Source: Phycisphaerae bacterium (GTDB lineage Bacteria > Planctomycetota > Phycisphaerae > Phycisphaerales > UBA1924). From it: a DNA stretch of 56,604 nt. Under the pieces are notes generated by a model. The model was not told the origin of the DNA. It did no database searches and saw only the letters and a program-made list of their open reading frames with translations. Positions within the stretch are counted from its first letter, which is position 1. Each line of letters begins with the position of its first letter. Below, piece by piece: positions 16,172 through 53,218 of the stretch. The stretch spans positions 1 to 56,604 of the forward strand of contig JAUIFD010000003.1 of NCBI GenBank assembly GCA_030429485.1, in the 5' to 3' direction. The translations under genes were made by a program, and so were the position numbers.

Positions 16172-16191
16172 ATAGCCGACAGCTGTTGTCG
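16172..16191 (+). promoter_or_regulatory. Upstream activator element U1
   Basis: ATAGCCGACAGCTGTTGTCG, with a CGACA-N5-TGTCG dyad inside. It is 17/20 identical to the element at 53199-53218 and 16/20 identical to the one at 29055-29074. In each case it is on the coding strand and 60-65 bp upstream of the -24 GG of a sigma-54 type promoter. This is the geometry of an NtrC-family enhancer site. The binding protein is inferred to be the regulator encoded at 43510-44967. Confidence 0.65.
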
Positions 16192-16249
16192 AGATGCGGA
16201 CACCTGGAGCGTGTGTGTCGCCAAACCTACTGCGGACGCAGCTGTGGGA

Positions 16250-16265
16250 TGGCCCGCCCTCTGCA
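16250..16265 (+). promoter_or_regulatory. Sigma-54 promoter P1 (TGGCCCG-N4-CTGCA)
   Basis: Matches TGGCAcG-N4-TTGCa with GG at 16251-16252, ten bases, then GC at 16263-16264. The predicted start of transcription is about 16276, with AGGAG and ATG 16303 following. It drives the orphan lipoprotein gene. Confidence 0.7.
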
Positions 16266-16302
16266 TGATCGGAGATTGCCAACCAAACCAAGGAGCCAAG
16301 CC

Positions 16303-16968
16303 ATGAAGGCCATCGGCATGATCGTCGCGACCACATCGTCACTTCTGTTCTTGTCCGGCTGCGCGTCCGATGGGACCAAGCCGGATGACATGGGCGCCTC
16401 GGAGCACCGCGCCGCCGCGGAGCGCGAGAGGGTTGAGGCGGAGCAGCATGAGGAGCAATACGACCCGTCAGCCGTGAGCCATCGAGATCCGTCCCAAGCA
16501 GAGGACGTCATCTATGGGGTCACTGACGTCTACTGGAGCGGCGATGTCTACAACCCGACCAAGGTGCATAAGAACGTGGCAGAGGCACACAGGGATCTGG
16601 CCAAGGCCCACGATGCTGCCGCCGTGACACTTGAATCGTTCGAAGAGGCAGAGTGCAAGGCTTTCCCAGCCTCAACGCGGCCCTCATGCCCGCTCCTCGG
16701 GTCCGTCGCTACCGTGGACGACATCGAGGGAGGCGTTCGGCTCCGCTTCAGTGAGGGCTTCGATGTAGCGCCGGTGGCTGCGCACGTTCGCTGCCACTTC
16801 GCGTTCGCCCGGGCGCAGGGCTACAAGGGAATGGACGGCTGCCCCCTGTATCTGAAGGGCCTGCGCGTGAAAAAGGGAGACGGCGCCATCGACCTGCTCA
16901 TCGAAGACGACGCGCAGCTAAAAGAGCTCCGCAAGCGGGCCCACGCGCACGCTGGCGTATCCCAGTAG
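16303..16968 (+). CDS. Lipoprotein of unknown function in the copper regulon
   Basis: 221 aa from ATG 16303, with AGGAG 8 bp upstream; the open frame reaches back to 16186 but crosses the promoter. The signal ends at LLFLSGC (lipobox; Cys about 20). The mature protein opens with an Ala/Glu/Arg coiled segment (SEHRAAAERERVEAEQHEEQYD). A region with four Cys follows (AECKAFPASTRPSCPLLG and VRCHFAFARAQGYKGMDGCPLY). The last part resembles FAFARAQGYKGMDGCPLYLKG-type conserved text, but I cannot name a family. It is a single-gene unit with its own sigma-54 promoter and activator site, which places it in the envelope response. An 11-bp stem terminator follows. Confidence 0.75.
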   Translation: MKAIGMIVATTSSLLFLSGCASDGTKPDDMGASEHRAAAERERVEAEQHEEQYDPSAVSHRDPSQAEDVIYGVTDVYWSGDVYNPTKVHKNVAEAHRDLAKAHDAAAVTLESFEEAECKAFPASTRPSCPLLGSVATVDDIEGGVRLRFSEGFDVAPVAAHVRCHFAFARAQGYKGMDGCPLYLKGLRVKKGDGAIDLLIEDDAQLKELRKRAHAHAGVSQ

Positions 16969-16989
16969 CGGGAACCACCTTGACCAGCG

Positions 16990-17025: not shown

Positions 17026-17072
17026 GCCGCGCGCACCGCCTCCGACGTCGGGGCGGGACTTGGCCCCGGCGA

Positions 17073-20636: not shown

Positions 20637-21116
20637 TCAACGGCCCATCTGACACGTCCCCTTGTCCAGTCGATCGGCGTGCCACTGCACATGCGTCCGA
20701 AGAGACGAGACCGACTCCGGCCGCTTGGCCTTGAACACGATCCGCGCACCGTCGGGCGTCTCCTCGACGATGACATCGGTCTCCGGCATCTCCGCCATGT
20801 GGGCGGGCCCCTTCATCGCGTGAGCCCGGTAGTGGTCGGCCATCGCCGAGACTCGCCGCCGAAGGTCGTCGAGCATGTTGATAGGCGCGGTGAACGTCAT
20901 CGCCGCGCCGCCCTTTACCTCCGCGTGAGAAACTGTCGCGTTCATCACGTACATGGGACAGATGTCGTCGTTCCCTGACGGCATCTTCATCATGTGCGGC
21001 CGTCCGGTGGCGGTGGCCTGCTCCGCGGGCTTGGCCACGGGGTCCTCGCACCCGGCGGTCAACGCCAGCGCGGCCACGACGGCAACGGTGAACAGCAGGG
21101 CGCTTCTGACCATCAT
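20637..21116 (-). CDS. Met/His-containing lipoprotein downstream of copA
   Basis: 159 aa. The signal ends at ALALTAGC (lipobox; Cys about 23). Mature features are [29 protein letters not shown], and a later [18 protein letters not shown] with His and Met pairs. The ATG overlaps the copA stop (ATGA, 21113-21116). A periplasmic copper-binding or chaperone role is inferred from composition and from position between the P-ATPase and DUF2933; no family is recognised. Confidence 0.75.
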
Positions 21117-23422
21117 GACAACCTCGCGCGCTTCAAGCGGAGCGCGTTCCCGACGACGGAGAGGGAGCTGAAGCTCATCGCCGCGGCCGCGAGCATCGGG
21201 CTCAGCAGCAGGCCGAAGAACGGATAGAGCAACCCGGCCGCGACGGGGACGCCCGCGGCGTTGTAGGCGAACGCCCAGAAGAGGTTTTGCTTGATGTTGC
21301 GCATGGTGGCGCGACTCAGCCGGCGCGCTCGCACGATGCCGCCAAGGTCGCCCTTCACGAGGGTAACGCTGGCGCTCTCCATGGCGACGTCGGTGCCGGT
21401 GCCCATGGCGATGCCGACCTGTGCCTGCGCGAGGGCGGGCGCGTCGTTCACGCCATCGCCCGCCATGGCGACGATGGCGCCTTCGCCCTGGAGTCGCTCG
21501 ACCTCAGCCTTCTTCTGTTCGGGCAGGACCTCGGCGACGACCCGGTCGATGCCAAGCTTCTTCGCGACCGCCTCCGCCGTCGTGCGGCTGTCGCCAGTGA
21601 GCATGACGACCCGCAGCCCCTCTTCGTGAAGCGCCTTGATGGCGTCGGGGGTTGTTGCCTTGATGGGGTCAGCCACGCCGAGCAGCCCGCTGGCGACGCC
21701 ACCGATCACGACGAACATCACTGTCTGGCCCTCTGCGCGCAGGGCCTCTGCGCGCTCGACGAGGTTCCCAGGCTCCACCCCGAGCTCGGTGAGCAGCGCG
21801 CGGTTGCCGAGGCCGATGCGCTTGCCACTGACGACGCCCGTCACGCCCTTGCCGGTGACCGATTGAAAGCCGTCGACGTCGAGGGAGCCGGTCGGGCCGC
21901 CGCGCTGCTCCGCACCGCGCACGATCGCCGCGGCCAGTGGGTGCTCGGACGACCGCTCGATGGCGGCCGCGGCGGCCAGCAGCTCTGCCTCGTCGGCGCC
22001 ATCGGCCACCTCTACGGTGACCAGCTCGGGGTGGCCCTCCGTGAGGGTCCCCGTCTTGTCGACGACGAGGGTGTCGACCTTGCGCATCACCTCGATGGAC
22101 TCGGCGTTCTTGAACAGCACGCCGAGCTGCGCACCCTTGCCCGTCGCGACCATGATCGACATCGGCGTAGCGAGCCCGAGCGCGCAGGGACAAGCGATGA
22201 TGAGCACAGCGACCGCGTTGATGAGCCCGTACGCCATCGCGGGGTCGGGGCCCCACACCGCCCAGACCACAAACGTGATCACGGCGACGGCGACGACGAC
22301 GGGGACGAAGTATCCGGACACCACGTCGGCCAGCTTCTGGATGGGAGCACGGCTGCGCTGGGCTTCGGCCACCATGGTCACGATGCGCGAGAGCAGGGTG
22401 TCGGCGCCGACCTTCTCCGCTCGCATGACAAAGCCGCCCGTCTGGTTGACGGTTGACCCCACGACCGCGTCGCCTTCGGCCTTCTTCACGGGGATGGGCT
22501 CGCCTGTGACCATGGACTCGTCGACGCTCGAGGAGCCCTCGAGCACGACGCCGTCCACCGGCACCTTCTCTCCGGGACGGACGCGTAGGCGGTCACCGGC
22601 GACGACGGCCTCCAGAGGCACATCGCTTTCCGTCCCGTCGTCGGCCACGCGTCGCGCGGTCTTGGCCTGCATGCCCAGGAGCTTCTTGATCGCCGCGCTC
22701 GTCTGCGACCGCGCCTTCAGCTCCAGCACCTGGCCGAGCAGGATGAGGGTCACGATGGTGCCGGCCGCCTCGAAGTAGACGGCGACCTCGCCGGCTTCGT
22801 TCCTGAACGACGCGGGGAAGATGCCGGGCAGCAGCGTGGCGATGACGCTGTAGGTGAAGGCGACGAACACACCGAGCCCGATCAGCGTGAACATGTTCAG
22901 GTTGAATCCCTTGAGAGACTGGACGGCCCGTACGTAGAACGGCCACGCTGACCACAGCGCGATGGGCAACGCGAGCACGAGCTCGATCCAGCTGCGCCAG
23001 CCATGAGGGAGAGCGGAGGAGACCGGCTGGCCGGGGAGCATGTCGCCCATGACGATGGCGACGAGCGGGACGGTCAGCACTGCCGCGAAGACGAATCGCC
23101 TCGTGAAGTCCTTGAGCTCGGGGTTCTCCTCCTCGTCACCGACGGGCGTTCGAGGCTCAAGCGCCATGCCGCACTTGGGGCAGGAGCCCGGCTCCGACTG
23201 GACGATTTCGGGGTGCATCGGGCACACCCACTCCGTCGCGGCGACCGCGGGGGTGGCCCGCTCGAGCGCCATGCCGCACTTGGGGCAGGACCCCGGGTCC
23301 GCCTGGCGCACCTCAGGGTGCATGGGGCAGGTCCACGGGCCGCTCGATGCCGCCGGTTGGTTTGGGCCGGCTGGAGGCGCCTCATGGTGGCAGTCGGTGT
23401 GGTCGTGATCCGTGTGCAGCAT
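21113..23422 (-). CDS. copA: CopA-type Cu(I) P1B-ATPase with two N-terminal CPMHP metal-binding motifs
   Basis: 769 aa from ATG 23422. The open frame extends to 23635, but the sigma-54 promoter at 23435-23450 lies inside that extension, which fixes the start. After a His-rich head ([14 protein letters not shown]) come two heavy-metal-binding motifs, CPMHPEV...CPKCGMAL, replacing the usual HMA domains. Eight helices follow with all P1B-ATPase motifs: VTGEP (actuator), [12 protein letters not shown] (transmembrane Cys pair), DKTGTLTEG (phosphorylation), SSEHPLA (HP motif) and [10 protein letters not shown]. The CPC type indicates Cu(I)/Ag(I) export to the periplasm. It is the first gene of an eight-gene minus-strand operon. 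Confidence 0.92.
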
Positions 23423-23706: not shown

Positions 23707-24840
23707 GTGTGGCGCCTGCTCCTCCGCAACCTGCTCGATGACCCGGCTCGGACGCTGCTGAGCATCCTCGGTCTCGCCGCCGCGGTGATGTTGGTGCTCG
23801 TGTTCGAGGGCTTTTCGGAGGGGCTGTACGCGCAGCTGCGGGCCTACCCCGAGCGAGTCGGCGCCGATCTGGTCGTACTTCGCGCCGGCGTCCGCAACCT
23901 GGCCGCCGCTACCTCGGCACTCCCGCAGAGCACGAGAGCCGAGCTGGAGGCCACGCCCGGGGTGGAGCGTGTCCATCCGCTCGGCGGCCTCCCTCTCATC
24001 TACGAGGCGAACGGACAGCGCACACCCATCTATGTGGTCGCGTTCGAGGACAAGGGTGGCCCGCCGGTGGTGGTCGAAGGGGGCCCCCCGGAACCGGGGC
24101 GCCGCGTCGTCATCGACGCCGGGCTCGCCGACAAGTATGAACTCGGCGTAGGCGACGAGGTGGAGCTGGCCGGCGAGCGCTTCGTCGTCGCCGGGATCAC
24201 CACGGGGGCGGCGGCGCTGTTCACGCCCTATGTGTTCGTGCGGATTGAAGACCTGATCGACATCGCCATCACACGGGCGATGGAGACCGGCGATGCGCCA
24301 GCCAACCTCGGGGTGGGCTTCTACCTCGTCGATCTGGCCCCGGCGGCCCAGCTAGAGGACGTGGGGGCAAGCATTGAGCGACGGCTCCCCGCCGTGGACG
24401 TCCTGGCGCCGGCCGAGATCGCGGCGAACGACGTGCAGATGGGCCGCCGGATGATGGGCGGCGTCATGCAGCTGCTGGTGGTCGTCGCCTACGTCATCGC
24501 GCTGCTCGTGGTGGTCATCGTCTTGTCGTCGTCGGTGCTGGCGAGGGCCCGCGAGCTCGGCACGTTGAAGGCGGTGGGCGCGAGCACGCCGCGGCTGATC
24601 GTGTCGCTTGGTCTCGAAGCCTCCCTGCTCATGAGCGTAGCGTTCGTCGTCGGCGCGGCGGCAGCGGCCGCCGTCGCGGCCGGCATCGAGGCGGCGTCGC
24701 CGATGTACCTGGTGACGCCGTGGGTACCCGGCGCGCTCCTGCGGACGGCGGCGGGCGCGCTGCTCATCTCCTGGGTCGGCGCGGCCATGCCCGCTCATCG
24801 CATCGGCCAACTGGACCCGGCCGAGGTCTTCGCGAGGTGA
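23707..24840 (+). CDS. ABC transporter permease, FtsX/MacB-type
   Basis: 377 aa from GTG 23707 (TTG 23701 possible). N-terminal helix WRLLLRNLLDDPARTLLSILGLAAAVMLVLVFEG, then a large periplasmic MacB_PCD-like domain (residues about 45-250). Three C-terminal helices carry the FtsX pattern ARARELGTLKAVGAS and end PAHRIGQLDPAEVFAR. It pairs with the second permease (4-bp gap) and with the YHS-fused ATPase. Such MacB/LolCDE-like permeases act mechanically on periplasmic substrates. The gene set lacks a membrane fusion protein, so a LolCDE-like or metal-protein handling role is conceivable; the substrate is unknown. Confidence 0.85.
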   Translation: MWRLLLRNLLDDPARTLLSILGLAAAVMLVLVFEGFSEGLYAQLRAYPERVGADLVVLRAGVRNLAAATSALPQSTRAELEATPGVERVHPLGGLPLIYEANGQRTPIYVVAFEDKGGPPVVVEGGPPEPGRRVVIDAGLADKYELGVGDEVELAGERFVVAGITTGAAALFTPYVFVRIEDLIDIAITRAMETGDAPANLGVGFYLVDLAPAAQLEDVGASIERRLPAVDVLAPAEIAANDVQMGRRMMGGVMQLLVVVAYVIALLVVVIVLSSSVLARARELGTLKAVGASTPRLIVSLGLEASLLMSVAFVVGAAAAAAVAAGIEAASPMYLVTPWVPGALLRTAAGALLISWVGAAMPAHRIGQLDPAEVFAR

Positions 24841-24844
24841 GGTG

Positions 24845-25960
24845 ATGCTTCGGTGGGCCATCAAGAGCATGATCGTCGACCGCGGCGCCCTGATCGGCGC
24901 CGCGGCGGGGGTTGGCGTGGCGCTCCTCCTGGTGCTGCTGCTCGAAGGCGTGTTCGCCGGAGCCTCCGACACCATCGTCGCCTACCCGCAAGCGGCGAAC
25001 GCGGACGTTTGGGTGATGCAGAAGGGCGTCGCCAACATGCACATGGCGAGCTCGCTGATCGACGGCGACCTCGTCGGCCAGACCGCTGACGTCCCCGGCG
25101 TCGAGTCGGTCGAGCCCATCCTCTATGTAAACAGCTTCATAGAGACAGAAGGGGGAGCGCTCTGGTTCGCCTACATCGTCGGCATCACGCTTGCGGCCAC
25201 GAACAGCGGGCCGTGGGAGATGGCGGCGGGTGCGCCCGTGCCCCGTGCCGGCGAGGCGGTGCTGCCGGAGGGCCTCGCGAAGAAGGCCGGCGTGCGCGTC
25301 GGTGACGAGGTGCGGGTGCTGGGCAGGGAGCTCCGGGTGAGCGGCCTGTCCCGCGGAACGTTCTCCATGGCCAACTCCATCGCCTTCGTCGCCTATGCCG
25401 ACCTTGAGTCGATGCGGGAGGCCAGCGGCGCGGCCAGCTACGTGTTGGTTCGGGCCCGGCCCGGTGTCGACGCGGAGGCACTGGCCGAGGCGATCCGCAC
25501 CGCGGTCCCCGGCGTGAACGCCGTGACGTCGACCGTGTTCATCGAGAACGATCGCGAGGTCGCCCTGCAGATGGGCGTCAACGTGGTGCGTCTCATGAGC
25601 GGCGTCGGCGGTGGTGTCGCGCTCCTCATCATCGCGTTCACCCTGTTCACGCACGCGGCGCGACGGTCGCGTGAGCTGGCGATCGCCAAGGCCCTCGGCG
25701 CGACGTCGCGGTCGCTCTACGGCGCGTTGCTGGTCCAGTCCCTGTTCATCGCGAGCGCGGGCTTCGCAGCGTCGGTGGTGCTGGCGCTGATCGTCGAGCC
25801 GATCATCGAGACGGCGGTGCCGGAGGTCGCCGTCACTTACGTGCCGACCACCGCCGGCTGGCTGCTCCTCGTCTCGTTGGTCGTCGGGATCGTCGCGTCT
25901 GTGGTCATCGCCCAGCGCGTCGCTCGCACCGACCCCGCGGCCGCGTTCTCTGGATCGTAG
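24845..25960 (+). CDS. ABC transporter permease, FtsX/MacB-type (second)
   Basis: 371 aa from ATG 24845, with GAGGTGAGG upstream; GTG 24842 is an in-frame alternative. Topology as for the first permease: helix at about 12-35, a periplasmic domain with NADVWVMQKGVANMHMASSLIDGDL, then AARRSRELAIAKALGATSRSLYGALLVQSLFIASAG and two further helices, ending RVARTDPAAAF. It forms a heterodimeric permease with the preceding gene. The MHMASS-type Met/His in the periplasmic part is noted but may not be functional. Confidence 0.85.
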   Translation: MLRWAIKSMIVDRGALIGAAAGVGVALLLVLLLEGVFAGASDTIVAYPQAANADVWVMQKGVANMHMASSLIDGDLVGQTADVPGVESVEPILYVNSFIETEGGALWFAYIVGITLAATNSGPWEMAAGAPVPRAGEAVLPEGLAKKAGVRVGDEVRVLGRELRVSGLSRGTFSMANSIAFVAYADLESMREASGAASYVLVRARPGVDAEALAEAIRTAVPGVNAVTSTVFIENDREVALQMGVNVVRLMSGVGGGVALLIIAFTLFTHAARRSRELAIAKALGATSRSLYGALLVQSLFIASAGFAASVVLALIVEPIIETAVPEVAVTYVPTTAGWLLLVSLVVGIVASVVIAQRVARTDPAAAFSGS

Positions 25961-25968
25961 GAGGCTCC

Positions 25969-30795: not shown

Positions 30796-30796
30796 C

Positions 30797-31462
30797 ATGC
30801 TTCAACGAATCCACCTCACGGCGGTCGCGCTCAGCGTGGCGCTCGTTGGGACATCCTGCACGCAGAACCAGACCGCAGCGAGCGGCGCGTCGAAGACCAG
30901 CGAGGTGGCGCCAACGTCGAAGCCCACGACGCCCAAGGCCTCCGGGCCGGCATCCGCCCCTGCGCAGCGCGTGGCCCTCAAGCTGACCGGGCTTGCGCCC
31001 TTGTCGCCTGCGATCTCACTCGAGGCTCCGGCTCGCAGCAAGCTGCAGGCGCTCGTCGCTGGCTACATGACCATCGGAGAAGCGCTCGTGGCGTCAAACG
31101 TGAAAGCCACCCGGGAGGCGGCAGCGAGCGCCCAGACCCTGATCGACGGTGTGCCCGCCGCTGGCCTGCCCCCCGATGCCGCCGCCGCGTGGACGCAACA
31201 GTCGACCGCCATGCGTGACGCCCTCAAGGTGATGAGCAACGCCGAGGCGGACTTGGTCGCCCAGCGGTTTCGGTTTGCTCGGTTGTCGGAAGCGGTCTAC
31301 GCCGCGGCGCGGTCGTTTGACCTGAAGGGCAGCTTCGTCCAGTTCTGCCCGATGGCGAACGACAACGCGGGCGCGATCTGGCTGAGCAGCGCCAAGGAGA
31401 TCAAGAACCCCTACTTCGGAGAGGCCATGCTGATGTGTGGCGAGACGAAGGAGCAGATCTGA
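30797..31462 (+). CDS. DUF3347 copper-associated lipoprotein
   Basis: 221 aa. The signal ends at ALVGTSC (Cys about 21), followed by a Thr/Ser/Ala/Pro linker. The conserved domain (residues about 75-221) is helical: LQALVAGYMTIGEALVASNVKATREAA ... FVQFCPMANDNAGAIWLSSAKEIKNPYFGEAMLMCGE. The FCPMA...G..WLSS...I.NPYFG..ML.CG signature is DUF3347, found alone or fused to CusB-type adaptors in copper systems. The Cys and Met in FCPMA and MLMCG are probable Cu(I) ligands. It is tightly packed: 1 bp after the propeller-Trx stop, and TGATG overlap with the next gene. Confidence 0.88.
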   Translation: MLQRIHLTAVALSVALVGTSCTQNQTAASGASKTSEVAPTSKPTTPKASGPASAPAQRVALKLTGLAPLSPAISLEAPARSKLQALVAGYMTIGEALVASNVKATREAAASAQTLIDGVPAAGLPPDAAAAWTQQSTAMRDALKVMSNAEADLVAQRFRFARLSEAVYAAARSFDLKGSFVQFCPMANDNAGAIWLSSAKEIKNPYFGEAMLMCGETKEQI

Positions 31463-32229: not shown

Positions 32230-32356
32230 GGTGCAGGCCACGCGCTGTGGCGGGGGCAACGCGGAGAGATCGGATTTGCGGATCAGACTCCGCCTGCTAC
32301 TCAGGGGGTGGGACCTTTCCCTACCTGGGTCCTACCTGGAAGGCGATCGCACTACG

Positions 32357-43509: not shown

Positions 43510-44967
43510 CTACGTTCCCGGGACGGGGACGATGGGGGCGGTCCCCGCGCCAGCGAGCGCATCGACCTCATCGTCGCGAATGTGGAACTTTTCCAGGCGA
43601 TAGAGGAGAAAGTGCCTTGGGACGCCGAGGAGGCGCGCTGCCTGCGAACGGTTCCCCCCCGCCTTTGAGAGCGCGGCCACGATGAGGGCGCGCTCGACCT
43701 CCTCAAGGTGGAGCCCGCCGTCAGGGATGGCGACCTCATGTTCGGAGATAAGTGAGGATCCGATGTGCCGCCTCGTCGCCCCAAGGTCGAGGCGGCCGTC
43801 TTGGGGGAGGAGCAGCTCGGGTGAGAGCGCCGCCCCCGGTGCCACGGTCACCGACATTCGGGTTGCGACGTTCTCCAACTCCCGGACGTTCCCCGGCCAG
43901 GCGCGCGCGTCGAGCTCCTGCAAGAGCTCGGCGCTGATCGCAGGCGCCTCGCGGCCCGCGACCGCGGCCGCCCGTGTGACAAACGCCGCGAAGAGGAGGC
44001 CGACGTCGGTGCCGCGCTTGCGAAGCGGCGGGAGTTCGAGCGGGACGACGCGAATGCGAAAATACAGGTCCTCTCGGAACTCGCCCCTTCGAGCCATCGC
44101 CTCGAGATCCTGGTGCGTCGCCGCGACGATACGGACATTGACCTTCTGCTGCCCGCCGCCAACGACGTCGACGACCCCGTCTTGGAGCACACGCAGCAGC
44201 TTGGCCTGGAGCTCAAGATCGAGGTCTCCGATCTCGTCGAGGAAGAGGGTCCCGCCGTCGGCCTCCACGAACCGGCCCTTGCGCGACGCGCTGGCACCGG
44301 TGAACGCTCCCTTCGCATGGCCGAACAGCTCCGACTCAAGGAGATCCTTCGGTAGGGCCGCGCAGTTCAGCGCCACGAAGGGCCGCTCGGCGCGCGCCGA
44401 GCCCTCATGGATTCGTTTGGCGATCAGCTCCTTGCCGGTGCCGCTCTCGCCTCGGATCAGGACCGTGGCGTCGGTCGGCGCTACCCGATCAACAAGATCG
44501 AGCGCGTCGCGCATCACACGGGACTGCGCAATCAGGCCGCCGCCCCTGGAGAGCTCCTCGAGACGCTGTCGAAGCTCTAGGTTCTCGCGTTCGAGGTCGA
44601 CACTTCTGACGACGCGATCGAGCGTCATCTTGAGCACGTCTCGGCTGACCGGCTTCGATAGGAAGTCGGCCGCGCCGGCCTTCATGGCCTCGACCGCCGC
44701 ATCTACCGAACCATGCGCCGTCAGCACGATGATGGGTGGATGGGCGTCCTGCGAGCAAACCTCTCGCACCAGCTCCATTCCGTCGCGGCCAGGCATACGC
44801 AGATCTGTGATGATGGCGTCGAAGGTCTGCACCTCGGTCATCAGCCCGAGCGCATCGTCGACAGAGTGCCGGACGGTGACGTCGCGCCCCTGTTGCTCCA
44901 TCGCATACGAGAGCACCTCGGCCAGCCGCTCGTCGTCATCGACCAGGAGTACGCGCTGCTTCTTCAT
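43510..44967 (-). CDS. NtrC-family sigma-54-dependent response regulator
   Basis: 485 aa. Receiver domain: acidic pocket D10-D12, phospho-acceptor D55 in IITDLRMPGRDG, T83 and K105. AAA+ domain: GESGTGKE (173-180), the sigma-54 contact loop GAFTGA (220-225), LFLDEIGD (241-248), and arginine-finger region FREDLYFRIRVVPLELPPLRKR. C-terminal Fis-type HTH: NRSQAARLLGVPRHFLLYRLEKFHI. It resembles ZraR/HydG-type metal-response activators. The ATG overlaps the kinase stop (ATGA). It is the only enhancer-binding protein in the window and so the best candidate to bind the U elements and fire promoters P1-P5, including that of its own operon. Confidence 0.93.
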   Translation of the reverse strand: MKKQRVLLVDDDERLAEVLSYAMEQQGRDVTVRHSVDDALGLMTEVQTFDAIITDLRMPGRDGMELVREVCSQDAHPPIIVLTAHGSVDAAVEAMKAGAADFLSKPVSRDVLKMTLDRVVRSVDLERENLELRQRLEELSRGGGLIAQSRVMRDALDLVDRVAPTDATVLIRGESGTGKELIAKRIHEGSARAERPFVALNCAALPKDLLESELFGHAKGAFTGASASRKGRFVEADGGTLFLDEIGDLDLELQAKLLRVLQDGVVDVVGGGQQKVNVRIVAATHQDLEAMARRGEFREDLYFRIRVVPLELPPLRKRGTDVGLLFAAFVTRAAAVAGREAPAISAELLQELDARAWPGNVRELENVATRMSVTVAPGAALSPELLLPQDGRLDLGATRRHIGSSLISEHEVAIPDGGLHLEEVERALIVAALSKAGGNRSQAARLLGVPRHFLLYRLEKFHIRDDEVDALAGAGTAPIVPVPGT

Positions 44968-46112
44968 GGCTTGCCCCCTCCGTGCGTTCCCTCATGGTGC
45001 GGTCCCACGCTCACGCTCGGGGGGAGACGAACAACGAATCGAGCGCCACCGGCAGCCGACTCCTCATATTGGATCGTCCCGCCATGCCCCTCGACGATCC
45101 GGGTCGCGATGCTCAGGCCGAGGCCGCTGCCCTCTGGTCGCGACGTGTAGAAGGGGTCGAAGATTCGCTCGCGGTCTTCTGCTGGAACGCCAGGTCCCGC
45201 GTCGTCGACCGTCCACTCGCAGCCGTCATCCGAGCAGACGGATCCGATGCAAACCGCGGCTCCCTCCGGACTCGCTTCTATTGCGTTGAGGACGAGGTTG
45301 AGAAGCATCTGGAGGATCTGGTCAGCGTCTACCAAGATGTTTGGTTGGTCAGGTCGATTGAAGACGAGGCGGACCCCCTTCTTGCGCGCCGTGCTCTCCG
45401 CGAGAGAGGACAGTCGCTCGATGAGCTCGTTCGCGTCCGCAGCAATGGGTTGCGGCCTCGGCGGCTTAGCAAACGCGAGAAACCGGTCGACGATGCCCTC
45501 GAGGCGCTTGACTTCCTCGAGGTTGAGCTCGGCCATTCGGTGCCTCTCGTGGCCAGACGGGTAGTCGTCGAGGAAGATCTCGGCCGTGCCGAGGAGAGAC
45601 GCGAGCGGGTTTCGGATTTCGTGAGCGACCCCCGCGACCAGCTCACCAAGCGCGGACAGTCGCGCTGCTCGATCGAGCTCGTCACGCGTGCGGTCGAGAT
45701 GAGCCTGCGTGCTCTTCGCCCGGTCAACCGCCCAGCCGACCGCGAGTCCCAAGGCCAGGTAAAGCACGATCTCCGACATCTTTTCGAGCGTGGGAGCAGG
45801 ATCACCGTGGAGATGGACCCCGAGGATGTCCGTTGGGCTCTCGAGGAACGCGTGCGGCGAGTAGACGGCGATAACGACCGCCGCGGCGACCCCGCCACCG
45901 CGCAAGCCATGGGTGACCGCAAGCATGACGATGGGCAGATAGTAGAGACGGCGAAATAGTGTGTGGCTATCCAGGTTCCCGAGATCGCCGTGGGTCGTGT
46001 AGTGGAAGACGGTGATGGTGCAGAGCGCTGCCACTGCTCCACCGTTCCAGAGCTTCCAGGCGCGCGTCCCAGGGGCGAAGCGGCCGCCGGTTGATGGCCC
46101 CAAATCACCCAT
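44964..46112 (-). CDS. Sensor histidine kinase paired with the sigma-54 regulator
   Basis: 382 aa from ATG 46112, with AAGGG upstream; it overlaps the cusA stop by 8 bp. Four to five N-terminal helices (about 21-128) include a short external segment HYTTHGDLGNLDSH with three His. The HisKA domain has AHEIRNPLASLLG (His164). ATPase motifs: LVLNAIEASPEG (N box), VDDAGPGVPAEDRE (G1), FDPFYTSRPEGSGLGLSIA (F/G2) and GHGG. There is no separate periplasmic sensor domain as in ZraS, so sensing would occur in the membrane or through the His loop. Its partner is the NtrC-type regulator. Confidence 0.9.
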   Translation of the reverse strand: MGDLGPSTGGRFAPGTRAWKLWNGGAVAALCTITVFHYTTHGDLGNLDSHTLFRRLYYLPIVMLAVTHGLRGGGVAAAVVIAVYSPHAFLESPTDILGVHLHGDPAPTLEKMSEIVLYLALGLAVGWAVDRAKSTQAHLDRTRDELDRAARLSALGELVAGVAHEIRNPLASLLGTAEIFLDDYPSGHERHRMAELNLEEVKRLEGIVDRFLAFAKPPRPQPIAADANELIERLSSLAESTARKKGVRLVFNRPDQPNILVDADQILQMLLNLVLNAIEASPEGAAVCIGSVCSDDGCEWTVDDAGPGVPAEDRERIFDPFYTSRPEGSGLGLSIATRIVEGHGGTIQYEESAAGGARFVVRLPPSVSVGPHHEGTHGGGKP

Positions 46113-49100
46113 CGCCCTTGCCTTCGGCCGGCGGCGCGTCTTCCACGGCCTCATCCGCATCGTCTTCTTCTGCAGACGTCGCGTCGCGTCCGCGCGTCCC
46201 CTTCCTGGCGGCCTGAGCATCAGCGTCTTCGGCCGGGTCGCTCAACTCCGCTTCTGCCTCACCTTCGACCGGCGGGTGTTGCCCATCCTCAGTCTCGTTG
46301 GGTGAGGGCTCGACGGTGCCGCCCTCGACTTGCGCGCCTTCCGAGGCAACCTGCGGTGCTTCAGCTGAGATGTGGACCAGCCCGTCAGCAGCGCCGCTAC
46401 CACCCGCTGGGGCGAGCTCGGGGCCCAACATTGCCCTGCGCCAGAGCAGATAGACCGCGGGGATGAGCAGCAGCGTCAGCACGGTCGAGGAGAGCAGGCC
46501 GCCAACCATCGGCGCAGCGATCCGCTTCATCACGCGCGTGCCGGTCTCGGTCCCGAACATCACGGGCAGCAAACCAATGACGGTCGTCGCGACGGTCATG
46601 ACCTTGGGTCTCACCCGGTCGACAGCGCCCTCGATCACGATCTCGACGAGGTCGGACAACGAGCGAAGGCGGCCCTCTGCGCGCCAGCGATCGAACGTCT
46701 CGTCGAGGTAGACGAGCATCACCACCCCTGTTTCGGCGGCGAGCCCCGCGAGCGCGATGAAGCCGACCCCGACGGCGACCGAGAGGTTGTAGCCGCTGAA
46801 GTACAAGAGCCATACGCCACCGACGAGCGCGAAGGGCAGCGTCCCCATGACGATCAACGTCTCGGCGAGGTTGCGGAAGTGCAGGAACAAGAGCAGCAGG
46901 ATGATGACGAGCGTGAGCGGCACAACAAGGGCGAGCCGCTTGTTCGCTCGCTCCATGTACTCGAACTGCCCGGACCAGAGGATAGACACGCCTTCAGGCA
47001 GCGACACCTCCGCGTCGACAACCTTCTGCGCAGCCTTGACGAACCCGCCAACATCCGAGGTCTTGAGGTCGACGAAGATCCATGCGGTCTGCCGAGCGTT
47101 CTCGCTCTTGATCGCCGGCGGGCCCTTCACGGTCTTGATGTCCGCGATGGCGCCGAGCGGGATGGTGTGTCCCAGCGGGGTGGTGACGGCGACGCGCCGG
47201 AGCGCTTCGATGTCGTTGCGAAGCTCACGCGGGTACCGCACGTTGATGGGGTAGCGCTCCAGTCCCTCCACGGTCCACGAGACGTTCATGCCACCCATCG
47301 CGGTCTTGATGACGTCCTGTACGTCGCCGACGGTGAGTCCAAAGCGCCCCGCGGCATCTCGGCGAATGTCGATGTCGACGAAGTTCCCGCCGGTGACGCG
47401 CTCCGAGTAGACGCTCAGCACGTCACCCATGCCTCGGACCACGGCCTCGATCCGTTGCCCAACCTGGTTGAGCTCTTCGAGGTCGGACCCCATGAGCTTG
47501 ATGCCGACCGGCGTCTTGATGCCGGTCGCGAGCATGTCGATGCGCGTCTTGATGGGCATCGTCCAGGCGTTGGTCAGGCCCGGGAACCTCACGCGCTCAT
47601 CGAGCTCGCGGATGATGTCCTCGATCGTCTTCCCCTCGGGCCACGTCTCCTCCGGCGCGAGGATGATCGTGCTCTCCATCATCGACAGAGGGGCCGGATC
47701 GGTCGCTGTCTCGGCCCGCCCCACCTTGCCGAGCACGTGCTCGACCTGTGGATGGCCGGCGATGAGCTTGTCGGTCTGTTGCAGAAGCTCCTTGGCCTTG
47801 GTGATGGAGATGCCCGGCGGCGTCGTCGGCATGTAGAGGAGATCGCCCTCGTTGAGCGGCGGCATGAACTCGCTGCCGAGCTTTGTGTACGGCCAAAGTG
47901 ATCCCGCCGCGATGAGCAGCGCTCCGAACAGGACGAGGACCGGGTGCCGAAGCGCTCGGCTGAGCAGCGGCCGGTACAGGGCGATGAGCACGCGGCTGAT
48001 CGGGTTGTCCTTCTCGGTTCGCACTTTGCCCCGGACGAAGAAGAACATGAGCACAGGGACGATCGTCACCGCGAGGAGCGACGACGCGGCCATCGCGAAA
48101 GTCTTGGTGTACGCCAGGGGCGTGAAGAGCCGTCCCTCCTGTTGTTCGAGAGTGAAGACTGGAAGGAAGCTCACCGTGATGATGAGCAGCGAGAAGAAGA
48201 GCGCCGGCCCAACCTCCTTGGCCGCCCTGAGGACGACCTCCTCGTGGGAGAGCCCGACGTCACGCTCCTTGTGCTTGTGGAGGTTTTCAACCATCACCAC
48301 GCTGGCATCGACCATGACGCCGATGGCGATGGCGATACCGCCGAGACTCATGATGTTGGCGTTGAGCCCCATCAACTTCATCACGATGAACGAGATCAGG
48401 ATGCCGACGGGGATGGTGAAGATCGCGACGAGGGCCGACCGGAAGTGCAGCAGGAAGATGATGCAGATGAGCGCGACCACGAGCATCTCTTCAAGGAGCT
48501 TGTTTCGGAGCGTGTCGATGGCACGCTCAATGAGCAGCGAGCGATCGTAGGAGGTGTGGACCTCGACGCCCGCCGGCAACCCGGCGTTCAACTCGGCCAG
48601 GCGTTCCTTGACCCCATCGATCACCTCGAGCGCGTTTTCTCCGAAACGCATGATGACGACCCCCGTGACGACCTCTCCTTCGCCGTTCATCTCCGCGACC
48701 CCGCGCCGGATCTCAGGGCCGCGTTGAACGCGCGCTACCTGGCTGAGCAAGACCGGTGTGTGGGTCGATGCGTCCAGGCCGACAGGAATGCTCATCAGGT
48801 CATCGAGCGATCGGATGTAGCCTTTGCCGCGGATCATGAACTCGGTCTCGCCCATCTCGATAAGGCGACCACCGACGTCGGTGTTGCTTCGCTTGATAGC
48901 TGCCTTCACCTTGGCGAGAGGAACGCCGTAGGCACGCAGCTTCTCGGGGTCGACCTCTACCTGGTATTGGCGAACGTAGCCCCCAACGGTCGCGACTTCC
49001 GAAACGCCGGGGAGGGCCATCAGCTCGTAGCGGAGGTACCAGTCCTGCTTGCTCCGCAGCGTGCTCAGATCGATGCCTGAGAAGTTCGCCGCCGCCAGGA

Positions 49101-49833
49101 CCTCCTCCCATGACAGCCCTGCTTCGCCGTCGCGGTCGAAGGCTTGTTTGATGTACCGGACAGAGTCCTCGAGAAACCGTCGAGCGTGTTGTGCGTGCTC
49201 GCCGTCGGTAGGGGGCTCAGCGTCGCCTCGAAAGAGGGATGTCAGCCAGGCGTCGCTCGAGGGGCCGTCCCCTTCCGGGAGCTCGTCTCGGGTGATTTCA
49301 CCGTTGCCGTCAGCGTCGTAAAGGTTGCGAAGGTGCTCGGCCCGTGGAAGGAAATCGCTCAGCGTGTACATGTACACCCAGCCGACACCGGTAGCGTCAG
49401 GGCCCAGCTGGGGTGTCACACCTTCAGGGAGACGGCTGCGCGCGAAGTTCAGGTATTCGAGCACCCTGGACCGCGCCCAATACAGGTCGGTGCCGTCCTC
49501 GAAGATCACGTAGACCATCGAGAAGCCGAAGAAGGAGTAGCCGCGCACCGTCTTGGCGTAGGGGACGCTCAGCATGGCGGTCGTGAGCGGATAGGTGACC
49601 TGGTCCTCGACGACCTGCGGTGCCTGGCCCGGGTACTCTGTGTAGACGATGACCTGGACGTCGCTGAGGTCGGGGATGGCGTCGATGGGCGTAGTCAGGA
49701 GTGCCCAGACGCCACCGGCGACGACGACCGCGGTGAGGATGAGCACAAGGCCTCGGTTCCTCACCGACCCATCGATGACCCGGTCGAGAAGGGAGGGTGG
49801 GCGTTCGGCGTCTTTGAGGTCAGAACTGGACAT
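46105..49833 (-). CDS. cusA: CusA-type Cu(I)/Ag(I) RND pump with inserted EF-hand pair and acidic tail
   Basis: 1242 aa, about 200 longer than CusA. TM4 reads AIAIGVMVDASVVMVEN, the CusA (HME4) signature. Methionines M668, M718 and M767 keep exactly the 50/49 spacing of the E. coli CusA copper triad (M573, M623, M672). Between YMYTLSD (about 157) and LRSKQDWYLRYELMALPG (about 259) lies a roughly 95-residue insert instead of the usual dozen residues. It has a canonical EF-hand loop DADGNGEITRDE (173-184) and a second, imperfect one DRDGEAGLSWEE (233-244). The last about 110 residues are an acidic Glu/Asp/Ala/Pro tail. It exports Cu(I) across the envelope with the flanking adaptor and TolC. Confidence 0.9.
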   Translation of the reverse strand: MSSSDLKDAERPPSLLDRVIDGSVRNRGLVLILTAVVVAGGVWALLTTPIDAIPDLSDVQVIVYTEYPGQAPQVVEDQVTYPLTTAMLSVPYAKTVRGYSFFGFSMVYVIFEDGTDLYWARSRVLEYLNFARSRLPEGVTPQLGPDATGVGWVYMYTLSDFLPRAEHLRNLYDADGNGEITRDELPEGDGPSSDAWLTSLFRGDAEPPTDGEHAQHARRFLEDSVRYIKQAFDRDGEAGLSWEEVLAAANFSGIDLSTLRSKQDWYLRYELMALPGVSEVATVGGYVRQYQVEVDPEKLRAYGVPLAKVKAAIKRSNTDVGGRLIEMGETEFMIRGKGYIRSLDDLMSIPVGLDASTHTPVLLSQVARVQRGPEIRRGVAEMNGEGEVVTGVVIMRFGENALEVIDGVKERLAELNAGLPAGVEVHTSYDRSLLIERAIDTLRNKLLEEMLVVALICIIFLLHFRSALVAIFTIPVGILISFIVMKLMGLNANIMSLGGIAIAIGVMVDASVVMVENLHKHKERDVGLSHEEVVLRAAKEVGPALFFSLLIITVSFLPVFTLEQQEGRLFTPLAYTKTFAMAASSLLAVTIVPVLMFFFVRGKVRTEKDNPISRVLIALYRPLLSRALRHPVLVLFGALLIAAGSLWPYTKLGSEFMPPLNEGDLLYMPTTPPGISITKAKELLQQTDKLIAGHPQVEHVLGKVGRAETATDPAPLSMMESTIILAPEETWPEGKTIEDIIRELDERVRFPGLTNAWTMPIKTRIDMLATGIKTPVGIKLMGSDLEELNQVGQRIEAVVRGMGDVLSVYSERVTGGNFVDIDIRRDAAGRFGLTVGDVQDVIKTAMGGMNVSWTVEGLERYPINVRYPRELRNDIEALRRVAVTTPLGHTIPLGAIADIKTVKGPPAIKSENARQTAWIFVDLKTSDVGGFVKAAQKVVDAEVSLPEGVSILWSGQFEYMERANKRLALVVPLTLVIILLLLFLHFRNLAETLIVMGTLPFALVGGVWLLYFSGYNLSVAVGVGFIALAGLAAETGVVMLVYLDETFDRWRAEGRLRSLSDLVEIVIEGAVDRVRPKVMTVATTVIGLLPVMFGTETGTRVMKRIAAPMVGGLLSSTVLTLLLIPAVYLLWRRAMLGPELAPAGGSGAADGLVHISAEAPQVASEGAQVEGGTVEPSPNETEDGQHPPVEGEAEAELSDPAEDADAQAARKGTRGRDATSAEEDDADEAVEDAPPAEGKGDG

Positions 49834-49836: not shown

Positions 49837-51792
49837 TCACCGCCTCTTCTCGACGAGGTCCATGCCGCAGATCGGGCAGCTGCCGGGCCCGCTCTGCACG
49901 ATCTGGGGGTGCATCCCGCACGTCCAATAGGTGTCGGCCTCTGAGCTCCCTTCGTCCGACGTGGCTTGCGCAAACCCCGGGCTCTTCGCTTCGAGGCGGG
50001 CATCGAGGAGCTTCTGAACCGCCTCCTGCAGTTGGCTCTCGCTGTCGAGCAGGAACTGCCCGGAAACCACAACGCGCTCGCCCTCGCGGACGCCGCTTTG
50101 AACTTCGGTCAGATGTCGATCGGCGACGAGCCCGGTGACGAGCTCGCGCTTTTCATACCTGCCACCACCGAGGGCAACGAAGACCAGCTGCCGCTCGCCG
50201 GAGTGGAGGATGGCCTCCGTCGGAATAGCCAGGGCTCCGTTGCGACGCCGCGCCTCAATGCGCACCGTTGCAAACATGCCCGGCTTCAAGGCAAGGCCGG
50301 GATTGTCGAACTCCAGCCGAACGGAGAGGGTGCGGCTCTTCTCATTGAGGGTCGGGTAGATGTAAGCGACCTTGCCGGAGTAGGTCTTGCCCTGTTGGTA
50401 GGTGAGCTCCATCGTCGCGGGCGCCCCGAGCTCGACCCAGGGGGCGTCGAACTCATAGACCTCAGCGTTGATCCAGATCTTCTGTAGGTTGCCGATACGG
50501 AAGATGTCCATGCCGGCCATGACTCGAGCGCCCTGCACCACGTTCTTGTGCAGCACATAGCCCTCACGAGGTGCCCGCACGCGAATGGTGCGCAGCGTCT
50601 GCTTTGTGGCGTCGACGCGGTCGATGTCCGACGGCGACATCCCGAAGAACTCGAGCCGGCGTCGCGCGCTCTTGGCCAGCGGGCTGCCGGTGCCACCCGT
50701 CCGCAGGGCGAGGAGGTACTCCTCCTGGGCGCTGACCAGCTCGGGCGAGTAGACCTCGGCCAGCCATTGCCCCGGCTTCACCTTCACGCCCGTCTCGTCG
50801 ACGTAGAGCTGTTCGATCCATCCCGAGAAGCGGAGGTTCACCACGGCGATCTCGTCTTCGGCCACGTCGACGGTGCCGAGCGCACGAATGTGGCGGAAGA
50901 GCGGCTCGCGGGTGGCCTTGGCGATGCGGACACCCATGTTCTGGACGACGACCGGGTCGATCTTCACCACGGGACCATTGGCACCGTCGTCTTCGTACAC
51001 AGGCACGAGGTCCATCCCCATCGGCGACTTGCCGGGTTTGTCGGAGATGAACGTGGGGTCCATCGGCGCGACCCAGTGCTTCACCGTGCGCGTCTTCTTC
51101 GCAGGGGCGTTCGAGGCCGCGCCCGTGTCCTTCTCTTCGAGGTCCATGCCGCAGATCGGGCAGCGGCCCGGCTCGTCGGTCACAACCTGGGGGTGCATCG
51201 GACAGACGTACGTGTCGTGATCGTGCGCGTGGCCTTCATGCTCCTGCAGCTGGTCGCGCGGAACGAGGTGCATGCCGCAGACGGGACAGCGCAGCTCCTC
51301 GTCTTGGCCCGCCTTCGTCTTGGCGATGTGCGTGTGCATGGGACAGGTGTAGTCGCCAGCGCCGACTCTTTTCGCGACCCGCGGCTTGGTCGATGTACCC
51401 GTGGACGTCGATGGTGCTGTCGAGGCCTTTGTCTGGCCGGACTTTGCCTTCGATTTGGGTGCAGGCACCGCCTTCGCGTTGGGTTGGGACGCAGGAGCCG
51501 GCGCTCGGCCGCTGAGCATGGGCGGGGCCTTCTTCCCGGTCTTCTCCTCCCAGGACTTGAGCTTCTTCATCGCCTCCCCAGCCGGGCGTTGCTTCAAGAA
51601 CATCTTGCAGAGGGGGCAGCGGCCTTCGCCGTCGCTTATGATCTGGGGGTGCATCGGGCATTGGTAGAGCACGTCGCCATGCTCGTGCTCCTGAGCGTGC
51701 GACGGGCTCGGGGCCCAGGTCAGCGTGATGGCAGAAACGCCCACGAGCAGGGCCGCGGCGAGCGCGACGGAGAGTCGGGTCCGGATCTTCAT
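49837..51792 (-). CDS. cusB: CusB-type adaptor with five CPMHP-like metal-binding motifs
   Basis: 651 aa against roughly 400 for E. coli CusB. A signal peptide (residues 1-33) is followed by repeated heavy-metal-binding motifs. These are CPMHPQI...CPLCKM (45-64), CPMHTHI...CPVCGM (150-174), CPMHPQV...CPICGM (197-216), a degenerate APMDPTF...SPMGM (242-260), and a C-terminal CGMHPQI...CPICGMDL (last 28 residues). Lys/Ala/Ser-rich linkers separate the first two. Adaptor core: VVQNMGVRIAKATREPLFRHIRALGTV, FSGWIEQLYVDETGVKVKPGQ, hairpin SPELVSAQEEYLLAL, VRAPREGYVLHKNVVQGARV and the beta-barrel. It would collect periplasmic Cu(I) and hand it to CusA. The gap to cusA is 3 bp. Confidence 0.92.
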   Translation of the reverse strand: MKIRTRLSVALAAALLVGVSAITLTWAPSPSHAQEHEHGDVLYQCPMHPQIISDGEGRCPLCKMFLKQRPAGEAMKKLKSWEEKTGKKAPPMLSGRAPAPASQPNAKAVPAPKSKAKSGQTKASTAPSTSTGTSTKPRVAKRVGAGDYTCPMHTHIAKTKAGQDEELRCPVCGMHLVPRDQLQEHEGHAHDHDTYVCPMHPQVVTDEPGRCPICGMDLEEKDTGAASNAPAKKTRTVKHWVAPMDPTFISDKPGKSPMGMDLVPVYEDDGANGPVVKIDPVVVQNMGVRIAKATREPLFRHIRALGTVDVAEDEIAVVNLRFSGWIEQLYVDETGVKVKPGQWLAEVYSPELVSAQEEYLLALRTGGTGSPLAKSARRRLEFFGMSPSDIDRVDATKQTLRTIRVRAPREGYVLHKNVVQGARVMAGMDIFRIGNLQKIWINAEVYEFDAPWVELGAPATMELTYQQGKTYSGKVAYIYPTLNEKSRTLSVRLEFDNPGLALKPGMFATVRIEARRRNGALAIPTEAILHSGERQLVFVALGGGRYEKRELVTGLVADRHLTEVQSGVREGERVVVSGQFLLDSESQLQEAVQKLLDARLEAKSPGFAQATSDEGSSEADTYWTCGMHPQIVQSGPGSCPICGMDLVEKRR

Positions 51793-53090
51793 GGCTGCGT
51801 GTCCTTCTCGCCGGATGGGGCGAAGCGTCCGGTGAGCATGTCGATGGCGATGGCGGCCGTGGCAGCCTCAGCTCGCGCGTTCAGCTCGGCGCGTTCGTAC
51901 TCGAGGACGGTGAGCTCCGCAGAAAAGAGCTCGGCGAACCCAGCGCGGTCGACCTGGTACGACCCGAACGCAGCCTCGAGGGTCTTCTGCGCGCCGGGGA
52001 TCAGCTTCGCGCCGTAGACCTCGCTCTTTTCGATCGCGCGCTGGTACCTGACGACCGCAGCGTCGAGCTCGCCGCGCAGGTTCAGCTCCACGCCCTGGCG
52101 GCGGGCGTCCTCGGAGCGCGCGCGCGCCTCGTGCGCCTGCGCCTTCTCTTCCCACTTCCAAAGCGCAGATGCCCACGGGATCGGCACCGAGACGCCAGCG
52201 GTCAGGAAGTTGTTGCCGGGATCGGCTCCGGCGGGCAGCCGAACCCGGTAACCCGCCCAGGCCGTGACGTCGGGCCACTTCTCCGAGCGCATCGCTGAGG
52301 CCTGAGCGCGTTCGGCCGTGGCCGAACCTCGAAGGGCGGCCAGCACCGGACGGTTCTGCCGGGCCACCTCGACGAGCCGGACAACGTCGAGTTCTGCCGC
52401 GTCGGGGATCGGTATCTCTGAACCGAGCTGGAGCGGCGCACCGGGTTCGCGCTGCGCTGCAGCATTAAGCGCCGCGGCGATGGCGTCGCGTCGTCGATCG
52501 AGCTCGACGAGGTCGTCGGCGAGCTTGTCGCGCAAGACCTCGAGCCGGATGAGGTCGTGCTGCTCGACGCGGCCGAGCTCGTACTTGACGCGTACTGCAT
52601 CGAGTAGCTGCTCTGCCGCTTCCAGGTGACGCTCGGTGACGCCGCGGAGGGCACGAGAGAGTCGCCATTGCACGACGAGCATGTGAACGCGGCCGGCGAT
52701 CTGATTGGCGGCCTCGTCCTTCATGGGGACGGCCGCGTCCCGCACTGCTTCTGCGGCACCTGCGCGCGCCCAGAACTTGTACGGAAAGGGAACGGTCTGG
52801 CTGACCTTGAGCTGGATGCCGCTCATCGGGTGGTTCCCGGGCCACGGCGCGAGCACCGGCATGTTGCTGTACTCTGTCGCGACCATCGCATCCGGCCAGA
52901 CCCAGGCCTGGGGAATGGCATGCCCGAGGGCTTCGATGCGCTGGTTCGCGGCCTCAACATCCGGGTGACCAGCGATGGCGCCCTCGATCAGCGCATTGAC
53001 GTCTGTCGGCGAGACCTCTGGGCCAGCCTCCGGAGGCGGGACAGAGGGCGGCGCGGCAGCAAGCGCGAGCAAGAGTAGGATGGGCTCCAC
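51789..53090 (-). CDS. cusC: CusC-type TolC-family outer membrane factor
   Basis: 433 aa from GTG 53090, with GGAGG 9 bp upstream; the open frame to 53141 crosses the sigma-54 promoter. The short signal (MEPILLLLALAAAPPSVPPP) is followed by VNALIEGAIAGHPDVEAANQRIEALGHAIPQAWVWPD and long barrel helices of the OEP family. It is the first gene of a ten-gene run and overlaps cusB (ATGA). It forms the outer-membrane duct for the CusBA pump. Confidence 0.88.
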   Translation of the reverse strand: MEPILLLLALAAAPPSVPPPEAGPEVSPTDVNALIEGAIAGHPDVEAANQRIEALGHAIPQAWVWPDAMVATEYSNMPVLAPWPGNHPMSGIQLKVSQTVPFPYKFWARAGAAEAVRDAAVPMKDEAANQIAGRVHMLVVQWRLSRALRGVTERHLEAAEQLLDAVRVKYELGRVEQHDLIRLEVLRDKLADDLVELDRRRDAIAAALNAAAQREPGAPLQLGSEIPIPDAAELDVVRLVEVARQNRPVLAALRGSATAERAQASAMRSEKWPDVTAWAGYRVRLPAGADPGNNFLTAGVSVPIPWASALWKWEEKAQAHEARARSEDARRQGVELNLRGELDAAVVRYQRAIEKSEVYGAKLIPGAQKTLEAAFGSYQVDRAGFAELFSAELTVLEYERAELNARAEAATAAIAIDMLTGRFAPSGEKDTQP

Positions 53091-53119
53091 GTTGTTGGTC
53101 CTCCAGCACAACGAGGCCA

Positions 53120-53135
53120 AGCACCATCCGTGCCT
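53120..53135 (-). promoter_or_regulatory. Sigma-54 promoter P5 for the cusCBA operon (AGGCACG-N4-GTGCT)
   Basis: On the minus strand GG (53134-53133), ten bases, GC (53122-53121). The predicted transcription start is about 53109, 19 nt before GTG 53090. It would drive at least cusCBA and the kinase/regulator pair, giving autoregulation. Confidence 0.7.
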
Positions 53136-53198
53136 GAGCATAAGAGTCTGATTTCAAAGCCTTTGTGGTGGGGGCTGCGAATCCGTCTGTAGCGCACG

Positions 53199-53218
53199 CG
53201 ACAACGCCTGTTGGCTAT
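53199..53218 (-). promoter_or_regulatory. Upstream activator element U5
   Basis: Minus-strand ATAGCCAACAGGCGTTGTCG, 17/20 identical to U1 and in the same orientation to its promoter, 65 bp before the -24 GG. A weaker relative (11/20) lies one 21-bp period further upstream (53220-53239). The 18-bp near-palindrome at 53208-53225 overlaps it. Confidence 0.65.

Follow-up and report, generated by a model that had tools for sequence, protein, structure and literature searches.

A candidate sigma54-dependent copper-sensing module and its predicted tandem dyad operator on mobile DNA

Regulatory genes and sigma54 promoters of the window

Contig JAUIFD010000003.1, a stretch of 56,604 nucleotides to which we refer as the window, carries a series of copper genes together with a histidine kinase and a sigma54 activator, and we here examine the promoters and the predicted operator through which this pair may control them. 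The activator and proposed master regulator (43510..44967, minus strand) matches the Pfam families Response_reg, Sigma54_activat and HTH_8 and contains the GAFTGA motif as well as a recognition helix of sequence VPRHFLLYRLEKFHI. With a receiver, an AAA+ domain bearing GAFTGA and a Fis-type helix-turn-helix (HTH), it appears to belong to the sigma54 enhancer-binding response regulators of the NtrC class, and -24/-12 promoters with upstream dyads, as found in this class, are present in the window. The initial annotation had named it as the only enhancer-binding regulator of the window and placed it in the cus operon, which holds for the 40 open reading frames scanned with Pfam; no OmpR- or MerR-type regulator was detected among them. 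Its partner kinase (44964..46220, minus strand; HisKA and HATPase) has a membrane sensor.

The same annotation had assigned a -24/-12 element to each of five transcription units, just ahead of the start codon, and all five were recovered with a sigma54 matrix whose frequencies approximate the Barrios 1999 compilation. They occupy ranks 1, 2, 5, 9 and 13 among all positions of the window on both strands, where 13 of 113,180 positions score above 10.17. The elements are TGGCCCGCCCTCTGC for a lipoprotein gene (16250-16264, plus), GGGCACGAAGCTTGC for copA (23436-23450, minus), TGGCCCGGTCATTGC for an ABC/multicopper oxidase operon (23679-23693, plus), TGGCGCGAAGGATGC for a propeller-thioredoxin operon (29135-29149, plus), and AGGCACGGATGGTGC for the cus operon (53121-53135, minus). 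Of the 32 gene starts that were listed, a strong sigma54 site 5-90 bp upstream is present at these five and at no others, with 0.31 expected; the corresponding Poisson p of 2e-5 is optimistic, since the five sites were already known when threshold and start codons were set. An rpoN gene was found in both metagenome-assembled genomes (MAGs) that concern us: G000 (3.69 Mb), of which the window is contig C249, and G151.

The genes behind these promoters are largely of copper-related type. The lipoprotein (16303..16968, plus) is of unknown family, with a lipobox-like LSGC and no Pfam match. CopA (21113..23422, minus), a P-type ATPase with N-terminal heavy metal binding domains, scores 582 bits with TIGR01511 (cut-off 397), and divergent from it are two FtsX/MacB permeases, an ABC ATPase and a multicopper oxidase, assigned by Pfam (23707..28328, plus). 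Profile searches identified a thioredoxin-like protein, a DUF3347 protein, a BIM1-like copper protein, a DUF4215 protein, a multicopper oxidase and a cytochrome c in the next operon (29176..35543, plus). The cus operon, on the minus strand, begins with a CusC-like outer membrane factor (51789..53090; OEP), for which we retained the GTG start at 53090 as initially proposed, and continues with a CusB-like adaptor with repeated heavy metal binding domains (49837..51792; HlyD_D23, HMBD in five stretches) and a CusA/CzcA-type resistance-nodulation-division (RND) pump (46105..49833; ACR_tran; TIGR00914, 1209 bits with a cut-off of 701). Whether the controlled genes number about 25 depends on operon read-through.

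The dyad within and beyond the window

Upstream of three of the promoters, the initial annotation had described a shared 20-bp enhancer element. The three copies match as described (16, 17 and 15 of 20 positions identical, on the coding strand), with their 3' ends 60, 62 and 65 bp before the GG, and within the 150 bp upstream of each of the five units the best 20-mer triple reaches a minimum identity of 15, compared with 11 to 14 in 300 Markov shuffles. As a regulatory element the 20-mer was not borne out, because dyads seen in relatives divide it into the right half of one dyad and the left half of the next, 21 bp on. The element is better described as a putative 16-bp dyad, TGNNGRATAGYCNNCA, centred on AT|AG and often doubled at a 21-bp pitch; in relatives its core is GAATAGTC or GAATATTC, located upstream of sigma54 sites beside related activators. 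Searched genome-wide, the 20-mer showed no enrichment beyond the three sites: with up to three mismatches, G000 has 11 sites and 6 reversed-pattern controls, and with two mismatches G151 has 30 sites and 54 controls, while the zero-mismatch pattern occurs in both genomes only at the three promoters. Two further candidates were discarded, the 10-mer ATAGYCRACR being too short for a search pattern (18 sites versus 7 controls in G000) and CGACA-N5-TGTCG being dropped once the relatives had shown their cores.

Dyads are found at all five promoters. The lipoprotein gene has a divergent copy, CGGTAAATAGCCGACA (16166-16181, plus), placed by its leave-one-out rank, and a degenerate second copy assigned by inspection, TGTCGAGATGCGGACA (16187-16202, plus). 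Between the divergent copA and ABC operon lies TGGGGAATAGCCGACA (23533-23548, plus), a matrix match overlooked by the initial annotation. The propeller-thioredoxin operon is preceded by CAGTGAATAGTCGACG (29049-29064, plus), likewise a matrix match, and, 21 bp on, by TGGCGAATAGTCGTCA (29070-29085, plus), the best match in 1.1 Mb to a matrix trained without this genome. For cusCBA, TGTCGGATAGCCAACA (53209-53224, minus) is followed 21 bp on by a degenerate copy, TGTCGCGTGCGCTACA (53188-53203, minus), again assigned by inspection. All four occurrences of the exact string ATAGYCRAC in the window fall within these promoter regions. The dyad centres lie 77.5, 79.5 and 58.5, 82.5, 91.5, and 139.5 bp before the GG, and the commonest dyad-to-promoter distances in relatives are 61-63, 82-86 and 92-98 bp.

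Held-out scans recovered most of these sites. A first matrix, built from 14 sites at seven other loci, was applied to the 370-kb G151 contig containing this region (C7): its best match is at 29074 (window numbering), with 23537, 29053 and 53220 at ranks 4, 9 and 21, and among the 40 matches listed only these four have a sigma54 score of at least 10 at 40-200 bp. With a second matrix of 13 sites, from which the single site of G151 had been removed, the top four joint hits in 1.107 Mb of G151 (C7 plus C18) were the thioredoxin operon, the ABC operon, a second cus operon on C18, and copA, ranks two and four both referring to the dyad at 23533. Dyad-preserving permuted matrices gave four hits above 26 in 2 of 200 cases. 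When trained on the other sites of this genome, leave-one-out scans placed the lipoprotein and the cus site each at rank 6 of 687 sigma54-like sites in the 1.1 Mb. The second cus operon (G151:C18:581001-601000, locus L192) again comprises cusCBA, kinase and activator, is 67-78% identical to the first, and has an equivalent dyad and sigma54 site; its activator is 76% identical to that of the window, with nearly the same helix.

Activators of this type extend well beyond the two MAGs. In the fetched loci, a recognition helix of the form RHxLxYRxEK is shared by the window and 50 of 50 relatives and absent from all 23 other activators listed. Similarity and profile searches placed such activators in three GTDB phyla, namely those of G151 (which includes Myxococcus xanthus), of the Chlorobiaceae MAG G347, and of G349; at E <=1e-174, the activator profile matches 24 of 394 genomes of G347's phylum and 63 of 395 of G349's, the helix itself being verified in the fetched loci. 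We examined 40 test loci outside the training set (20, 19 and one from the phyla of G347, G349 and G151, respectively) for a dyad with a score above 13 that has, at a distance of 35-170 bp, a sigma54 site scoring above 9. Such pairs occur in 26 of the 40, compared with 2 of 81 loci of control activators, and permuted matrices found 1.5 on average and at most 5 (100 permutations). Cus, CopA or multicopper oxidase genes are present in 24 test loci and in none of the 81 controls. Directly behind ten dyad promoters that we scanned are outer membrane factors (4), HMA domains (2), FtrD-like proteins (2), and proteins without a Pfam match (2), and in a myxococcal relative such a promoter precedes a plastocyanin-like protein.

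The partner kinases share a sensor motif, HY...H...RRLYYxP...PH, in a four-helix membrane region, present in 40 of 48 relative loci versus 0 of 83 control loci. All 42 aligned kinases have His73, His86, His123 and Glu150; this count leaves out five loci without a kinase hit, the two Firmicute loci, whose kinases are of PAS type, a truncated kinase, and a locus in which the nearest kinase hit is 4.3 kb distant. On this conservation, the three histidines probably bind copper. The sensor of the window kinase is a distant match to DUF4118 (16.6 bits, below the cut-off of 28.4, which only one of four kinase sequences passed). An AlphaFold2 model of the kinase from three sequences was too poor to be used (mean pLDDT 62, pTM 0.37), and a structure look-up returned generic activators only.

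An equivalent set of genes is located on plasmid pPRO1 of Pelobacter propionicus DSM 2379, where kinase PPRO_RS18145 and activator PPRO_RS18150, with helix IPRHTLIYRLEKYGI, are accompanied by TolC-CusB-CusA (RS18155-18165), a P-type ATPase, an HMA-domain protein, and an FtsX/ABC pair. Dyad pairs outside the training set lie in four intergenic regions (1060/1091, 5137/5157, 11478/11499 and 18456/18476 of locus L354), with a sigma54 score above 10 near three of them and none near the pair before TolC. Ahead of CopA, the plasmid also carries a CsoR-type "metal-sensitive transcriptional regulator" beside the sigma54 system, which suggests two-layer copper control on pPRO1.

The island, the proposed mechanism and its alternatives

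By BLAST, the window is 99.96-99.99% identical to positions 191494-248209 of JAUIJE010000008.1 (G151:C7), in reverse orientation. Between about 190 and 276 kb, C7 contains an abrupt block of foreign tetranucleotide make-up. A perfect direct repeat of 50 bp (190846-190895 and 276159-276208), which is the terminal part of a tRNA-Arg(CCG) gene, bounds this block; a tyrosine integrase lies at one of its ends, and a primase/VapE (prim-pol) protein is close to the opposite end. These features identify 190846-276208 as a predicted integrative island of about 85 kb at tRNA-Arg(CCG), with the copper cluster as its putative cargo, and the window covers two thirds of it. The integrase begins in the window as an open frame cut by the contig end (55911..56604, plus) and is complete at G151:C7 190976-192187 (Phage_integrase, 7.5e-19). 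Nearly identical DNA is thus present in two MAGs. No such activator was found in members of G000's family at E of 1e-100, nor was the right-hand island end found in G000; G000 may therefore carry the island, or the window may have been misbinned. About 95 bases of JAUIJE010000008.1, a gap between two BLAST pieces, are missing from the window at 36774-36778. The island further contains two RND systems, a cation diffusion facilitator transporter and an M48/M56-type peptidase (window 1049-15456), and the adaptor at 2425-3732 is split between two open reading frames by an in-frame stop.

We consider it likely that the window encodes a copper-responsive two-component system with sigma54 output that controls five promoters via the dyads. 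The membrane kinase would read copper through its four-helix sensor with three histidines and phosphorylate the activator; the latter would bind the 16-bp dyads, usually two at a pitch of about 21 bp, 48-140 bp before the -24 element, and its ATPase would open sigma54 RNA polymerase at the promoters of cusCBA-kinase-activator, copA, the ABC/multicopper oxidase operon, the thioredoxin/BIM1/multicopper oxidase operon, and the lipoprotein gene. The domains, the sequences of promoters and dyads with their enrichment, and the joint presence of helix, sensor, dyad and copper genes are directly observed; binding, phosphorylation, copper as the ligand, transcription starts and operon extent are the parts that we infer. 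The initial proposal of one sigma54 activator for the copper units is partly supported by sequence: the activator and these units have an operator-like element in common, and this held up when tested on other contigs and genomes.

Several observations weigh against this model, or against the generality of the module. The transcription starts predicted from the -12 elements of copA (23424) and the ABC operon (23705) fall 2 bases before the start codons, so that these mRNAs would be leaderless or their start codons misassigned. Plain column permutation gave no separation at joint scores above 21 (6 observed versus 0 to 17 in 20 permutations) and was replaced by the dyad-preserving permutation with a higher threshold. 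The lipoprotein site falls to rank 12 once relatives join the training, and neither the lipoprotein nor the cus promoter appears in the top 16 joint hits of the matrix built from relatives; from their ranks in these scans and in the leave-one-out test, both sites are divergent members of the dyad family. Among the 40 test loci, 14 have no dyad-sigma54 pair at threshold and 16 have no copper genes in the fetched stretch, and many of these loci are close kin, so that the counts are not independent. The kinase motif is missing from 8 of the 48 relative loci, partly as no kinase is nearby, and the two Firmicute members of the set are paired with PAS kinases. Finally, monophyly of the RHxLxYRxEK set is not supported: a tree built without the HTH needs three changes, at least two of them forced, and unites 37 relatives in one supported group, with the window and L192 activators outside. 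The helix and the dyad may therefore have spread, or have originated repeatedly.

The position of the starts predicted for copA and the ABC operon could also mean that their -24/-12 matches are accidental, that these two units use other promoters, and that the regulon is limited to the lipoprotein, thioredoxin and cus promoters, where the copies are paired. The CorE promoter that M. xanthus copA has besides its sigma54 promoter points in the same direction (PMC3707914). We regard this as unlikely, given that no sigma54 site of the window scores higher than those of copA and the ABC operon and that the dyad they share ranks so highly with a matrix from outside this genome. Slightly less improbable, if still doubtful, is control of these promoters mainly by the chromosomal paralog on C18, or by both activators together; the similarity of the two proteins and their operators allows for it, but the island has its own kinase and activator within the regulated operon.

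A signal other than copper, such as silver, zinc, or envelope or redox stress, with the copper genes merely among the targets, has a comparably small chance of being correct. Assignment to the CusA/CzcA families leaves the metal open, ZraSR-type systems respond to zinc and envelope stress, and the relatives without copper genes would fit as well; the neighbours, however, are copper-specific in type (CopA by TIGR01511, multicopper oxidases, BIM1-like, HMBD and HMA). It is far less probable that another regulator, for instance an OmpR-type CusR or a MerR-type CueR, occupies the dyads and that the activator acts elsewhere. Boxes of the CusR type are likewise dyads, their arms being GACA/TGTC, but the dyad tracks the helix of this activator across loci, lies at enhancer distances upstream of sigma54 sites, and has no OmpR- or MerR-type candidate among the scanned reading frames of the window. 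Chance similarity in high-GC sequence, to which the missing genome-wide enrichment of the 20-mer might point, can be dismissed almost entirely in view of the zero-mismatch sites, the shuffles, the held-out scans and the other genomes.

Together with the copper-responsive model that we favour, these data incline us to see a sigma54 module for copper sensing that is widespread, moves horizontally and has so far no description as such, in which a tri-histidine four-helix kinase, an RHxLxYRxEK activator and a phased tandem dyad, TGNNGAATAKTCNNCA, would occur in at least three GTDB phyla and, on a plasmid and a tRNA-Arg island, bring a ready-wired copper regulon to new hosts. A sigma54 copper switch with a predicted operator and sensor site would recur in distant phyla and travel on mobile DNA. 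The predicted operator would enable annotation of many regulators labelled only "sigma-54 dependent", and the module raises the question of how a tri-histidine membrane sensor reads copper.

Relation to known regulatory systems

Most well-studied bacterial copper switches are OmpR-, MerR- or CsoR-type regulators or extracytoplasmic function sigma factors. The initial annotation had called the present system ZraSR-like. Escherichia coli ZraSR does resemble it as a metal-linked kinase and sigma54 activator of equal domain make-up, but its targets differ, the sensor of the window kinase is a four-helix DUF4118-like domain of another kind, and the window proteins remain far below the equivalog cut-offs of NCBIfam ZraR and ZraS (350 of 760 and 195 of 479 bits).

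Sigma54 control of copper genes is already known as a kind, and the statement that such a layout was not known from myxobacteria is contradicted by CorSR of M. xanthus. CorSR consists of a histidine kinase and a sigma54-dependent response regulator, and the copper operon under their control has been assigned four putative promoters of the sigma54 type; expression of this curA operon, which includes CopA and a multicopper oxidase, was shown to depend on CorSR (PMC3707914). Both systems therefore have a kinase and a sigma54 response regulator inside a copper operon with several sigma54 promoters. They differ in that the putative CorR, assigned by the gene order CopA-activator-kinase-multicopper oxidase in locus L202, is 40% identical to the window activator and has the helix MERESLHRLLKRFGL rather than RHxLxYRxEK, and in that CorS is reported in the same passages to have a periplasmic sensor and HAMP, a domain that Pfam did not find in the window kinase (PMC3707914). 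A strong dyad of the window type is absent from the L202 stretch (best score 10.3). In this stretch, a curA-like operon of M. xanthus AM003, dyads of the type GTGTGACC-N5-GGTCACAC lie 91-94 bp before three sigma54 sites (9823, 7607 and 3613, minus strand); this dyad, of which the window has no GTGTGACC copy, is a candidate CorR operator that the accessible passages do not mention (PMC3707914). NmpR of M. xanthus is likewise NtrC-like and has paired dyads ahead of a promoter of the sigma54 type, but its description gives a GCGCA-N5-TGCGC dyad, a preferred spacing of 14-15 bp, and an oxygen-related regulon (PMC11841059). The parts of papers on Desulfovibrio, Geobacter and marine copper systems that were available contain no copper operator of this kind, and a description of this dyad or sensor was not found in the open-access papers searched, although one may be in print elsewhere.

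The closest counterpart is the system of pPRO1, which shares with the window the RHxLxYRxEK helix, the kinase motif, the adjoining CusCBA and the paired dyads. It differs in its AT-rich dyad core, GAATATTC, and its regulators are annotated merely as an ATP-binding protein and a sigma-54 dependent regulator. With Pelobacter propionicus DSM 2379, the predicted system has a culturable host in which it is directly testable.

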